Part shown: positions 1 through 24,159 of the stretch, in pieces
How positions within the stretch are numbered: position 1 is the stretch's first letter
Layout of the letters: every line of letters starts with the position of its first letter
Source: a virus
Direction: 5' to 3' (one strand)
DNA: 24,159 bases
IMG/VR virus record: IMGVR_UViG_3300017782_000216
Coordinates: 1 to 24,159 of that record
Made by a program: the position numbers and the translations under genes
The notes under the pieces: model-generated
What the model was told of the DNA's origin: nothing
The model's database searches: none
The model's input: the letters and a program-made list of their open reading frames with translations, nothing else

Positions 1-11
1 CGCGTTGGTAG
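1..11. repeat. Left copy of the 11-bp terminal direct repeat
   Basis: CGCGTTGGTAG at 1-11 is identical to 24141-24151, which lies 8 bases from the right end. If the ends join, the two copies are 19 bases apart, start to start. The sequence is not a simple overlap of contig ends, because the right copy is not at the very end. It may be a terminase-binding or cos repeat. Confidence 0.55.
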
Positions 12-5377: not shown

Positions 5378-6589
5378 ATGAAAACATCAAAACTTTACAA
5401 AGAAGAAAGAGCTGAAGTTATCGAAAAAATGGAAGGTCTTGTAGCATCTGCTGAAGGACGTGACATGGATACTGATGAACAAGCTAACTTTGATTCTTTA
5501 AATAACAAAGTAGAGGAGTTGAATAAGATGGCTACTAGAGCTGCATCTTTTGAACAACTTCAAGCTACAAAAGCTGTTAAAGAAGTAACAGAAAATACTC
5601 CAAATGAAATAAGAGATTATTCTTTCCAAGATGCTATGCATCAAGCGGCTACTGGTCGTCTTTCTGGATTGGTTAAGGAGATGGATACTGAGGCACGTAA
5701 TGAGGCTCGTTATACTGGTCAATCTTTTAAAGGTATCGGTATTCCAGCTTCAGTTCTAACAAGAGCTGCTGTTGCAACTGCTGCTGGTAATGCTACTGAA
5801 GTAATGGCTTGGACTGACCAATTAGAAGCGAATTTAGTTTTAGCTTCTGCTGGTGCAAACTTTTACTCAGGTATCGACAACATGAAGTTCCCTGTATTTA
5901 GTGCAATCAATTCTGGATTCGTTGCTGAAACTGGAGGAGCTGCTCCTGCTGCTAATGGTACTGCGACAAGCGTAACTTTAGACCCTAAGAAACTTATCTC
6001 TATTGTAAATGTTTCTGCTGAAGCTATTGCTCAAAATGCTTCTATCGAAGCTTCTTTGAGACGTAATATGGCTGCTTCTGTTGCTTCTACTTTGGAACTA
6101 GCTTTATTAGGAGACTCTGATATTGCAAACGCTCCAACTTCTATATTTTTAGACGCTGCAACTCAATCTGTTGCGGGTGCTGCTCCAACTGCTGCTGAGC
6201 TTTTAAATATGGAATCTACATTATTAGGAAATGGTGTAAACTTACAAGGTGCTAGAATGGCTTGGTTATTAGACTCAGGTGCTTTAGCTGAAGCTAAAAC
6301 ATTAGCTCAAGTAAGTTCTGTGTCTCCTGCTTATGACAATGTAGACAAATCATTCTTTGGTTACTTTGCATTTACTTCATCTAATGTAGGTGGTGGTTCT
6401 GGAACAGGAACTAACTATATGCTTTTAGATGCTAGTAAAGTTCACGTTGCTCAGTTTGGTGGTTTAGACGTTATATATGACATCTATACTAATGCTGGAA
6501 CTGGTGAGCCTCGTTATGTATTAACTTCTTTAGTTGATGGTGATATGGTTCAAAATTCTACTGCGGCTGTCAAAATAGACAATGCGTAA
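5378..6589 (+). CDS. Major capsid protein, HK97 fold
   Basis: This is the shell subunit. The 403-residue length and the position after the prohead protease fit HK97 gp5-type proteins. Residues 1 to about 90 are charged and helical (KLYKEERAEVIEKMEGLV and onward), resembling the delta domain that acts as an internal scaffold and is cut off by the protease. The rest is rich in small residues and has the usual NVSAEAIAQN helix segment (about 210-219). The GT-rich coding and A/T-rich leader are typical of a strongly expressed gene. A strong terminator hairpin follows directly (6602-6632), which isolates the head transcript. Confidence 0.96.
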   Translation: MKTSKLYKEERAEVIEKMEGLVASAEGRDMDTDEQANFDSLNNKVEELNKMATRAASFEQLQATKAVKEVTENTPNEIRDYSFQDAMHQAATGRLSGLVKEMDTEARNEARYTGQSFKGIGIPASVLTRAAVATAAGNATEVMAWTDQLEANLVLASAGANFYSGIDNMKFPVFSAINSGFVAETGGAAPAANGTATSVTLDPKKLISIVNVSAEAIAQNASIEASLRRNMAASVASTLELALLGDSDIANAPTSIFLDAATQSVAGAAPTAAELLNMESTLLGNGVNLQGARMAWLLDSGALAEAKTLAQVSSVSPAYDNVDKSFFGYFAFTSSNVGGGSGTGTNYMLLDASKVHVAQFGGLDVIYDIYTNAGTGEPRYVLTSLVDGDMVQNSTAAVKIDNA

Positions 6590-6601
6590 TTTTTTTTAAT
6601 T

Positions 6602-6632
6602 GGAGGGAGGAGAAATCCTCTCTCCTTTATTA
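6602..6632 (+). terminator. Intrinsic terminator after the capsid gene
   Basis: A 10-bp stem pairs GGAGGGAGGA (6602-6611) with TCCTCTCTCC (6616-6625), with one G-T pair and a GAAA tetraloop. It is followed by a T-rich tract (TTTATTATTTTTTT). It lies 12 bases after the capsid stop and would end or strongly reduce the head transcript. Confidence 0.85.
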
Positions 6633-6642
6633 TTTTTTTATA

Positions 6643-7266
6643 ATGGCATATTACCCAAATAATTTACTTAATGGAGACGGATACGTTAACTATGGAAAGC
6701 TAGTTTTAAAAACTGCTCCTGCCTCTACTGCTGTGTCTTTAGCTGAAGCTAAACAACATTTAAGAGTAGATTCTGACTTTGATAGTGACGATGCCTATAT
6801 TACAACGTTAATAGAAGTAGCTACTGATTTAGTGGAACAATTTACTAGACGTAGACTAATTACACAAACATACAATTTGTATTACGACCAATTTCCAGAC
6901 TACATGAATTTACAAGTCGGAATAGTAGCGTCAGTAGTACATATAAAATACAGAGATACTAGTGACGTAGAACAAACGTTAGCTGGTGCAAATTACGTTC
7001 TTGATGACAAGATAAAACCTGGAAGAATATATATCTCAAGCACAGGAACATTTCCAGAAACTTACGACAGACCAAACGCTGTTGAGGTTGAGTTTACAGT
7101 AGGATCGGCTGCGGCTGACGTAGAGTCTGCAATAAAACAAGCGATATTGATAATCGTTGGAAGGTATTTTGAGCAAAGACAAGACGTAGTAATAGGTACA
7201 ATAGCGACCGAGCTACCTTTAATGGTTGAGTATATTTTAACTCCTTACAGATTGCTTGAGTTATGA
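6643..7266 (+). CDS. Head-tail connector, gp6-like (Phage_connect_1)
   Basis: This is the likely adaptor that docks below the portal ring. The segment SLAEAKQHLRVDSDFDSDDAY (about residues 26-46), followed by a helix with TLIEVATDLVEQFTRRRL, is the signature of gp6/DNA-packaging connector proteins. The C-terminal half ends in a helix with KQAILIIVGRYFEQRQDV, typical of the family. At 207 residues it is longer than HK97 gp6 because of an inserted beta-rich middle region. The stop overlaps the next start by four bases (ATGA). Confidence 0.85.
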   Translation: MAYYPNNLLNGDGYVNYGKLVLKTAPASTAVSLAEAKQHLRVDSDFDSDDAYITTLIEVATDLVEQFTRRRLITQTYNLYYDQFPDYMNLQVGIVASVVHIKYRDTSDVEQTLAGANYVLDDKIKPGRIYISSTGTFPETYDRPNAVEVEFTVGSAAADVESAIKQAILIIVGRYFEQRQDVVIGTIATELPLMVEYILTPYRLLEL

Positions 7267-19886: not shown

Positions 19887-20312
19887 ATGAAGATGGATGA
19901 TTTAGACATATTATTAAAAGAAAAGAATGACATTCAAAGCATAATTAAAGCGACTTGTTTTATTAACAATATAACACCTCAACAATTTGACACAAAATCT
20001 AGAGAAAGGTATTTAATAGACGCTCGGAGGATGGCTTATTCTGCTATCAAAGATATTTGCAATTTTGGATATACACGAATAGCAAAAGAATTCAATATGC
20101 ATCATGCTTCTATGATACATCATTATAAACAACATTCAAACTTATTATTAATGGATAGATTTTATAGTGAAAAATATGAAGCTTTAGTTGAAGTTGCAAA
20201 ATCTGAGATTGGAATAGTTGATGTACAAGACATTTTAAAAGAAGTAAGAAGAAGAAAGCTAGATTTTCAAAAAGCAAAAGTTAAAATTAAACAACACTTA
20301 GATAATTTATAA
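19887..20312 (+). CDS. DnaA domain IV-like DNA-binding protein
   Basis: The 141-residue product resembles only the C-terminal DNA-binding domain of DnaA. SRER (38-41), followed by a helix with RRMAYSAIKDI and then GYTRIAKEFNMHHASMIHHYK (61-81), is the recognition helix-turn-helix pattern (in DnaA: basic helix, then xIGxxFGGRDHTTVLHA). The DHTT signature is replaced by HHASM, so the binding site may differ. No AAA+ ATPase domain is present, so it cannot work as an initiator by itself. The C-terminal part (85-141) is charged and helical. It may recruit or compete with host DnaA, or mark the phage origin. Confidence 0.65.
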   Translation: MKMDDLDILLKEKNDIQSIIKATCFINNITPQQFDTKSRERYLIDARRMAYSAIKDICNFGYTRIAKEFNMHHASMIHHYKQHSNLLLMDRFYSEKYEALVEVAKSEIGIVDVQDILKEVRRRKLDFQKAKVKIKQHLDNL

Positions 20313-20322
20313 AACCAAAACA

Positions 20323-20541
20323 ATGACACAAAAAGAACAAATTTTAGGACATTTAAAAGAGTATGGATCAATAACTAGCTGGGATGCTATAATGGAATAC
20401 GGAGTCACTAGACTAAGCCATCACATATACTGTCTTAGAAATGAAGGGTATATCATTCCAGATAAACGTATTCAAGTTAACACAAGACTAGGAAGAACTA
20501 CTAAGATTTCTAAATATACTTTAAGAGATGAAAAGAATTAG
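20323..20541 (+). CDS. Helix-turn-helix protein, HTH_39-like
   Basis: The 72-residue product is a winged-helix-type DNA-binding protein. It has the HTH_39 pattern: TQKEQILGHLKEYGSITSWDA (about residues 2-22), then GVTRLSHHIYCLRNEGYI, which is the second and recognition helices, and a wing ending in SKYTL. It overlaps the replication protein gene by 14 bases. A regulator of the early operon or an accessory replication factor is possible. It is too small to carry an effector domain. Confidence 0.72.
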   Translation: MTQKEQILGHLKEYGSITSWDAIMEYGVTRLSHHIYCLRNEGYIIPDKRIQVNTRLGRTTKISKYTLRDEKN

Positions 20542-21235
20542 AGTAGTTAAAAACACAAACTTTACTACAATCAACAACGAGTTCATATTTAATAAAGATA
20601 TGAGCTTAAAAGCTAAGGGTTTACTTTGTCACTTATTAGCTTTGCCTAACGATTGGAAGCTTTATGTAGAAGAAGTAGAGAAACATCATAAAGATGGTAA
20701 GAAAGCCATTTATAGTGCATTTAAAGAGCTTACTGATAATGGTTATATGAAACGAGAACAAAAAAGAGAGAATGGAAAGATTGTTTCTTGGGATTATATA
20801 ATCTTTGAAAAGCCATATACCCAAAAGGTAGATGTACAAAATGTAGAAGTAGAAAAAGTAGATATACAAAATGCACCACTACTAAAGACTAATAATACTA
20901 AAGACTTAAATTTATTAAATACTAATAATAATAAAACACACGTTTTGAGTTTTCCAAATGAATTAAATTTAGAAGCTTGGGAATTATGGAAAGAATTTAG
21001 GAAAAAAGAATACAGAAAAAGTTATAAAGTTTTAGGAGAAAAAGCTGCAATAGGTAAACTTTTGAAATTAGCTGGTGATGACAAAGAACTGCAAAAAGAA
21101 ATATTATTGCAATCAATGGAAAATGGTTGGGTCGGATTGTTTCCAATAAAAACAGAAAAAGAAAGAAAAGTTAAAACGATGATGACTGAATACAATAACG
21201 GATTAGAAATACTAAAAAAACAATTTAATGACTGA
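20528..21235 (+). CDS. Replication initiation-like protein (winged-helix, lambda O/DnaD-like)
   Basis: The 235-residue product has an N-terminal winged-helix domain (about 1-92, FTTINNEFIFNKDMSLKAKG, then AIYSAFKELTDNGYMKREQK). This fits the N-terminal domain of phage replication proteins. A low-complexity linker (about 95-130) carries a repeat VDVQN / VDIQN followed by Asn/Thr-rich sequence. The C-terminal part (about 138-200) has WELWKEFRKKEYRKSYKVLGEK and SMENGWVGLFPIK, like the DnaD/DnaT-related helicase-loading part. It would bind the origin and recruit host helicase, by inference. The DNA of the linker contains repeats that may be origin iterons. Confidence 0.72.
   Translation: MKRIRVVKNTNFTTINNEFIFNKDMSLKAKGLLCHLLALPNDWKLYVEEVEKHHKDGKKAIYSAFKELTDNGYMKREQKRENGKIVSWDYIIFEKPYTQKVDVQNVEVEKVDIQNAPLLKTNNTKDLNLLNTNNNKTHVLSFPNELNLEAWELWKEFRKKEYRKSYKVLGEKAAIGKLLKLAGDDKELQKEILLQSMENGWVGLFPIKTEKERKVKTMMTEYNNGLEILKKQFND
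20828..20935. repeat. Direct repeats and AT-rich tract inside replication gene, origin candidate
   Basis: GTAGATGTACAAAATG (20828-20843) and GTAGATATACAAAATG (20858-20873) differ by one base and are 30 bases apart. GTAGA occurs four times here, at 20828, 20843, 20849 and 20858. The decamer ACTAAAGACT then occurs twice (20881-20890, 20897-20906) in a tract that is almost pure A/T (to about 20935). Lambda-type phages place iterons and a melting region inside the initiator gene. The repeats also encode VDVQN / VDIQN, so a protein repeat is the competing explanation. Confidence 0.4.
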
Positions 21236-23051: not shown

Positions 23052-23226
23052 TATTGAAGTCTATTTAAAAGACACAGAATCTTTAGACGATGGAAACGCT
23101 AGAGCAATAGAAGAACTTATGGATTTTGTAGATAATTGGATTAATGAAGACGGAATACCTCCTATAATCAAATTAGAATACAAGATGCCACAAATAGATG
23201 AAGAAGACAATATTTTATTAAACTAA
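23029..23226 (+). CDS. Hypothetical acidic protein (65 aa), GTG start
   Basis: The start is a GTG at 23029, followed by KIIASVSIEVYLKDTESLDDGNARAIEELM. The 65 residues are acidic (many Asp/Glu) and probably alpha/beta. The stop overlaps the next start by one base (TAATG), which supports the frame. No family is recognised. Confidence 0.6.
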   Translation: MKIIASVSIEVYLKDTESLDDGNARAIEELMDFVDNWINEDGIPPIIKLEYKMPQIDEEDNILLN

Positions 23227-23558
23227 TGCCAACACTACCTAAATCAAAGAAAAAGAAATGGATTGCTTCAAGTAGTAAGAAGTCTGGATATAAAGCTAAA
23301 CATTTATCTGTTCATTCTGATTTTTATAATTCTACTGCATGGAGAGAACTAAGGAAATGGTTTATTAAATCAAATCCTGTTTGTAAATGGTGTCAAGAAG
23401 AAGGTAGAGCTAATATAGAGAATTTGATTGTTGACCATATAGTAGAGATAATAGACGGAGGAGAGAAGCTTGACCCAAGTAACTTACAGACGTTATGTTT
23501 ATCACATCACAATCAGAAAACTAATTGGGCAAAGGCTAAAAGAAAAAAGGGGGATTAG
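23226..23558 (+). CDS. HNH endonuclease, HK97 gp74-like
   Basis: The 110-residue product is a zinc-stabilised HNH nuclease. C53-x-x-C56 (CKWC) and C91 with H94/H95 (CLSHH) are the likely zinc ligands, D70-H71 (VDHI) is the catalytic start, and N96 completes the HNH core. The N-terminus is very basic. In HK97-type phages this enzyme acts with terminase at the packaging site. Its position close to the window end, next to the terminase genes on a circle, agrees. The last codons and the TAG stop lie inside the tRNA-Ala gene, with 10 bases of overlap (23549-23558). Confidence 0.92.
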   Translation: MPTLPKSKKKKWIASSSKKSGYKAKHLSVHSDFYNSTAWRELRKWFIKSNPVCKWCQEEGRANIENLIVDHIVEIIDGGEKLDPSNLQTLCLSHHNQKTNWAKAKRKKGD

Positions 23559-23622
23559 CTCAGCTGGCTAGAGCGCCTGCCTTGCACGCAGGAGGTCATC
23601 GGTTCGAATCCGATATTCTCCA
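23549..23622 (+). tRNA. tRNA-Ala(TGC)
   Basis: The cloverleaf folds well. The acceptor is GGGGGAT (23549-23555) with ATTCTCC (23615-23621), including a G3-T70 pair, the main alanine identity mark. The D arm is GCTC with GAGC (23558-23561, 23571-23574). The anticodon stem is CCTGC with GCAGG (23576-23580, 23588-23592), and the loop CTTGCAC has anticodon TGC. The T arm is ATCGG with CCGAT (23598-23602, 23610-23614) and contains TTCGAAT. The discriminator is A and CTA follows, so CCA is not encoded. It overlaps the HNH stop by 10 bases. Confidence 0.97.
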
Positions 23623-23636
23623 CTAATTAAAAGACT

Positions 23637-23915
23637 ATGAAAAAAAGTAAATATTATTACGACATTGAAAGAAACATGAATACAACTGAAGACAATACTA
23701 AGATAGACATAGACATCCCACACTATTACATAGGGAATAATGGATATGAAGCTAGGAAAGTAATAGAAGGCTTTGACTTGAATTGGAATTTAGGAAACGC
23801 CGTAACTTATCTCTTACGTGCTTATCGTAAGCATGACAGTCCTTATGAGTGCATAAAAAAAGCGATAAACCATTTAGAATTTGAACTAGAAAAGATAAAC
23901 AGAGATGAGTTGTAA
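23637..23915 (+). CDS. DUF3310 family protein
   Basis: The 92-residue product has a Lys/Asp-rich start and the DUF3310 core: PHYYIGNNGYEARKVIEGF (about 30-48), then LNWNLGNAVTYLLRAYRKH (49-67) and a closing helix with CIKKAINHLEFELEKI. Small proteins of this family are common in phages and may act in nucleotide metabolism, but no activity is known to me. It starts 14 bases after the tRNA and overlaps the next gene by 11 bases. Confidence 0.85.
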   Translation: MKKSKYYYDIERNMNTTEDNTKIDIDIPHYYIGNNGYEARKVIEGFDLNWNLGNAVTYLLRAYRKHDSPYECIKKAINHLEFELEKINRDEL

Positions 23916-24117: not shown

Positions 24118-24159
24118 GTATAGGGAGATCCCAAGCACACCGCGTTGGTAGCCTCTTTC
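24118..24159. other. GC-rich terminal non-coding segment, probable packaging-site region
   Basis: These 42 bases contain GGGAGATCCC (24123-24132), an imperfect palindrome, and CGCGTTGGTAG (24141-24151), which recurs exactly at 1-11. Together with the GGGGGGCGG just upstream (24103-24111) they form a GC-rich patch in a strongly AT-rich genome, as seen at cohesive ends. HNH, tRNA and terminase genes flank it on a circle. I infer a cos-type site; no cut position can be fixed from sequence alone. Confidence 0.45.

Follow-up and report, generated by a model that had tools for sequence, protein, structure and literature searches.

A gene for an HNH endonuclease runs into a complete tRNA-Ala(TGC) gene near one end of the window, the whole 24,159-base virus record analyzed here. 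The HNH gene is without a stop codon of its own, and its frame runs on into the following sequence until it meets a stop, which in the window lies in the tRNA. It is likely that this arrangement reflects the insertion of a compact, functional tRNA cassette, with the HNH stop supplied by the following sequence and with exchange of the cassette between phages. According to this proposal, a Bacteroidota-type tRNA-Ala(UGC) would constitute a small cassette, mobile over evolution, placed between the HNH gene and the next gene, close to a cos end of a phage of ∼24.1 kb that carries no recognizable integrase. When the tRNA is present, the HNH reading frame would stop at U8-A9-G10 or, in another frame, at a TAG in the D-loop; when it is absent, the frame would stop within the beginning of the next gene. 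Recombination between related phages via the conserved flanks may have added, removed, or swapped the tRNA, and the tRNA sequence would be replaceable or quick to change by itself.

The HNH Gene and the tRNA

The features that define the junction and the ends of the window, all on the plus strand, are as follows.

1..11, +, left copy of CGCGTTGGTAG, a probable cos overhang, which matches joints in relatives
23226..23558, +, HNH endonuclease ORF of 110 aa, of the type adjoining cos and terminase genes; the final G-D and the stop are tRNA bases
23549..23558, +, 10-nt overlap of the HNH coding sequence with the 5′ strand of the tRNA acceptor stem and bases 8–10
23549..23622, +, tRNA-Ala(TGC) by ARAGORN and Rfam, a full cloverleaf through A73 with G3-U70; CCA is not encoded
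23556..23558, +, TAG stop of the HNH gene, which is U8-A9-G10 of the tRNA (from the sequence and the ORF)
23623..23636, +, short A/T-rich spacer that separates the tRNA from the following start codon; tRNA and spacer together form the extra cassette
23637..23915, +, next gene, 92 aa, overlapped at its start by the HNH stop in relatives that lack the tRNA
24141..24151, +, right copy of CGCGTTGGTAG, a probable cos overhang; the joint is intact in contigs L008 and L024

The HNH ORF matched the Pfam HNH profile PF01844 (E = 3.6e-9; 37.1 bits against a curated cut-off of 21.4) and the HNH endonuclease family phrog_144 (E = 6.7e-25), and the nearest solved structure was that of an HNH endonuclease (5h0m, E = 2.1e-15). 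Residues DH71, N86, and HH94-95 are invariant. On these sequence matches, the predicted assignment is firm. The product of the next gene was weakly similar to phage "nucleotide kinase" families in their C-terminal part (phrog_236, E = 4.4e-8).

Direct reading of the sequence gave KRKKGD as the C terminus of the HNH protein, with AAG GGG GAT TAG as the final codons, which span tRNA bases 1–10. Because the tRNA starts at 23549, GGG GAT belongs to the acceptor stem and TAG to bases 8–10. An earlier note on this DNA had described the nuclease gene as ending within a tRNA-Ala(TGC) gene, with its last codons forming the acceptor stem and its stop formed by bases 8–10. Both statements were borne out, the first by the ORF, ARAGORN, Rfam, and the sequence and the second by this direct reading, and the range given there (23496–23622) is correct for the tRNA end, A73 included.

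The tRNA is the sole one that ARAGORN predicted in the window (tRNA-Ala(tgc), 23549–23623), and it matched Rfam family RF00005 over 23549–23622 with 68.8 bits, above the cut-off. A73 is followed by CTA, i.e., the CCA end is not encoded. The tRNA had been called complete and equipped with the G3-T70 pair of alanine tRNAs, and this was confirmed; G3-U70 is the alanine identity pair, and it is invariant across the seven distinct tRNA sequences of the family. In these seven full sequences, with 21 pairs each, all 147 helix cells hold standard pairs, and both sides have changed in 7 of the 21 pairs; none of 500 shuffles reached this level. Judged from this pattern, the tRNA looks functional and under constraint. 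When the tRNA was folded by itself, the minimum energy was uninformative (z = −0.63).

Alanine codons in the window are mostly those that the tRNA would read. GCT occurs 312 times, GCA 112, GCG 33, and GCC 21 among 7,280 codons, so GCT and GCA make up 424 of the 478. The earlier remark that the phage is rich in GCT and GCA thus holds by codon count, and such a bias is expected at 33% GC. Supplying a tRNA-Ala that reads GCA and GCT during infection would be the most ordinary role for a predicted tRNA of this kind, and it is most likely the role here.

Presence, Absence, and History of the tRNA

Scans with the HNH protein or its alignment yielded 68 close HNH contigs, including the window. A tRNA-Ala is found at the HNH junction in nine of them (the window, L005, L236, L237, L244, L016, L017, L019, and L011). 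In seven of the nine (the window, L005, L016, L017, L019, L236, and L244), the stop is at bases 8–10 and the HNH tail reads KGD or KGN. In L237 and L011, a different HNH frame leads into the tRNA and runs on to the TAG in the D-loop, which gives the tails RGISSAG and RGISSDG, respectively. The frame of L011 could be an assembly error, since that contig ends inside its tRNA; L237 has the same frame with a complete tRNA. All four tRNA-bearing lineages have the junction at one and the same codon, which counts against repeated random insertion. The earlier note had suggested a search for the same junction in related phages. It was found, and relatives had either an overlapping junction or no tRNA at that place; none of them had a nuclease gene that stopped short of a separate tRNA.

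In relatives where the slot is empty, the HNH stop lies within the start of the next gene. Small ORFs fill the slot after the HNH gene in the tRNA-less contigs L002, L003, L027, L034, and L056. The HNH gene therefore borrows its stop either way, as tRNA-less sisters end it in the start of the following protein gene. It had been proposed that the nuclease gene was adapted to the edge of the tRNA, but at two of the nine junctions the frame is a different one and the stop lies in the D-loop, and the sisters without a tRNA take the stop from the next protein gene. The tail and frame of the HNH gene are therefore not finely adapted to the tRNA.

Two natural pairs with and without the tRNA are available in the family. 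Comparison of L237 with L239 and L240 showed a clean difference of 87 nt, comprising the tRNA and spacer, with near-identical flanks; the HNH stop of L239 and L240 falls within the beginning of the next gene. Likewise, L013 and L014, which have no tRNA, share ∼94% identity with L011 over 1 kb upstream. On the HNH tree, the presence or absence of the tRNA changes six times, at least five of them forced by well-supported branches, although the 108 columns of the tree are too few to separate gains from losses. Several insertions and an ancestral presence followed by several losses are both compatible with it. Together with a likely swap of the tRNA between L016 and L019, the pairs provide a usable case for studying how single tRNAs come and go in phages and are exchanged among them. 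Of the present findings, it is this variable presence and likely swapping of one tRNA at a fixed junction that is of some mild interest.

Two observations concern other contigs of the family. In L053, an ORF of ∼500 nt (∼6340–6860) occupies the slot in place of a tRNA and looks methyltransferase-like by eye (motif TNPPY). In the more distant, larger relatives L028 and L030, no gene follows HNH at the right end, where the contig breaks off ∼25 nt past the HNH stop.

The tRNA appears to have a history of its own. The tRNA-Ala genes of L016 and L019 (6324–6398 in both) differ at 11 of 75 positions, with compensated stems, whereas the flanks differ at 23 of 1,400 positions (14 of 1,000 upstream and 9 of 400 downstream), or under 2% (Fisher p = 3e-7, with independent sites assumed). 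This difference indicates that the tRNA of this group was probably replaced or is fast evolving. The window and L017 show the opposite balance, with 115 differences in 320 bases of the HNH gene and only 6 in the 75 of the tRNA. From these comparisons, the tRNA was probably either exchanged for another tRNA-Ala or subject to fast compensated change.

The closest cellular matches are tRNA-Ala genes of Bacteroidota, with 3–7 mismatches, as would suit the host-like character ascribed to the tRNA earlier. In this comparison, which drew on Bacteroidota plasmid records, the genes of Flammeovirga, Rufibacter, Prevotella, and Flavobacterium were 91%–96% identical over 75 nt and had the same anticodon. 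In three of the four Bacteroidota cases examined, tRNA-Ile(GAT) lies beside the tRNA-Ala, as in rRNA spacers. The phage tRNA is unlike these rRNA-operon genes in that its flanks differ and no tRNA-Ile stands alongside. The idea that it was acquired together with its flank did not hold, as no match was seen between the phage flanks and the host flanks examined, and the basic KRKK tail of the HNH protein is also present in relatives without the tRNA. Like lone phage tRNA genes in general, it is complete, host-like, and restricted to some relatives, but it differs from them in sitting directly in the end of an HNH gene and in changing faster than its flanks in the L016/L019 group. Lone tRNA-Ala(TGC) genes are also frequent in unrelated Bacteroidota-type viral contigs (L091–L170), often right after a small gene.

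Rapid change of the tRNA may also be read as evasion. Phage tRNAs have been proposed as counter-defense (PMC10264068), and the tRNA could replace a host tRNA-Ala cut by tRNA-targeting defenses. The anticodon loop and arms indeed differ among family members, and the tRNA of L016 has changed sharply, but the window has the same anticodon loop, CTTGCAC, as Flammeovirga. We regard this explanation as unlikely.

Gene-into-tRNA Overlaps in Other Viral Loci

The earlier note had implied that such an overlap is rare. This is wrong. Tight junctions were defined as those where a same-strand ORF of at least 80 aa ends ≤60 nt upstream of a tRNA or inside it, a count that takes in ORFs not all shown to be genes. 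At 13 of 60 such junctions outside the HNH family, the ORF runs into the tRNA (14 of 61 when the family copy L181 is counted), and 8 of the 13 overlapping ORFs stop exactly at tRNA base 10. Among the ORFs counted, that of L157 clearly encodes a replication initiation protein. TAG occupies bases 8–10 in 285 of 484 distinct tRNAs (59%) from the fetched loci of unrelated viral contigs. The sample behind these counts was gathered with tRNA-Ala patterns, is hence biased to tRNA-Ala, and contains some near-duplicates. Two of the three reading frames of the window tRNA meet a stop within 23 nt, at the TAG of bases 8–10 or at the TAG in GGCTAG. A stop at bases 8–10 is thus unsurprising once the HNH gene enters the tRNA.

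Gene-into-tRNA overlap is common in compact phage loci and hence ordinary here. Because tRNA bases 8–10 are so often UAG, it can be regarded as an ordinary product of compact phage packing, in which the tRNA serves as a ready-made stop for the preceding phage gene. The overlaps in other viral contigs involve other genes and Leu, Arg, Thr, and Glu tRNAs, and there, too, the stop comes from bases 8–10 or from the D-loop. The present case differs in being recurrent with one gene family, HNH, at one spot. No paper dealing directly with phage genes that overlap tRNA genes turned up in a literature search.

The geometry of the overlap invites a regulatory interpretation. One transcript would be unable to give both a mature tRNA and an intact HNH message, because an RNase P cut between 23548 and 23549 would remove the stop and leave the HNH mRNA stopless. 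The overlap might then act as a switch, in which RNase P strips the HNH stop, translation of the HNH gene blocks folding of the tRNA, and the two products are separated in time. The overlap is kept in nine contigs from at least four lineages, which speaks for a switch, but similar overlaps are common with unrelated genes and other tRNAs, the frame and the HNH tail vary, and most relatives have the HNH gene without any tRNA. Given the variable frame and the tRNA-less relatives, a required switch is unlikely, and we consider a switch of any kind improbable. A more elaborate version, in which maturation by RNase P destroys the nuclease message and so couples loss of the nuclease to supply of the tRNA, with the cassette exchanged to match the host, is decidedly improbable.

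Genome Ends and Integration

The record is classed as linear. The two direct copies of CGCGTTGGTAG, the contigs of several relatives that start or terminate at the corresponding position, and the intact joint through which L008 and L024 run suggest that the window holds a complete cos-ended genome of ∼24.1 kb followed by 8 stray bases; these final bases (CCTCTTTC) are no continuation of the direct repeat. The window phage thus has probable cos ends. Around the joint one finds, in succession, the HNH gene, the tRNA, two small genes, the presumed cos site, small terminase, methylase, and large terminase. The phage is a small one (∼24 kb) of Bacteroidota-type bacteria, and isolated phages are only distantly related to it.

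The tRNA could instead be an attachment site, with the phage integrating into a host tRNA-Ala and restoring a full copy, and with the swaps reflecting different hosts. Such a site would account for a full, host-like tRNA that changed independently of its flanks and whose closest cellular match is a tRNA-Ala of the rRNA-operon type. Against it, no tyrosine integrase (PF00589) was detected in 27 family records and no serine resolvase (PF00239) in 17, the tRNA lies beside cos rather than beside an integrase, it is absent in most relatives, which are otherwise alike, and a single profile scan of genome contigs with the HNH alignment gave distant matches and no close prophage. With these integrase families absent and the genome apparently whole, this reading is mostly refuted and very improbable. 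The earlier note had judged an attachment site unlikely for want of an integrase while allowing that a fuller sequence might hold one; neither of the two families was found in the records scanned, and the window looks like a whole genome. Taken overall, the earlier interpretation stood where it called the tRNA complete, host-like, and unlikely to be an attachment site, and fell on acquisition with a flank, on adaptation to the tRNA edge, and on rarity. Least probable of all is a passive, functionless leftover, which would fit the lack of the tRNA in most relatives but not the pairing kept throughout seven distinct sequences, the seven doubly changed pairs, or the invariant G3-U70.

The position of the HNH gene, by comparison, points to a function in packaging. 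In phage HK97, the HNH protein gp74 stimulates cos cleavage by terminase (PMC9410871). The HNH protein of the window shares with gp74-like cos HNH proteins the HNH domain, a small size, and a gene beside cos and the terminase genes; its sequence match is to PHROG HNH families. By its position, it probably promotes cos cleavage as gp74 does. Elsewhere in the window, the gene at 19887–20312 encodes a protein with a DnaA-type C-terminal helix-turn-helix (PF08299, E = 3e-9), and a replication-initiation-like gene lies beside it at 20528–21235.
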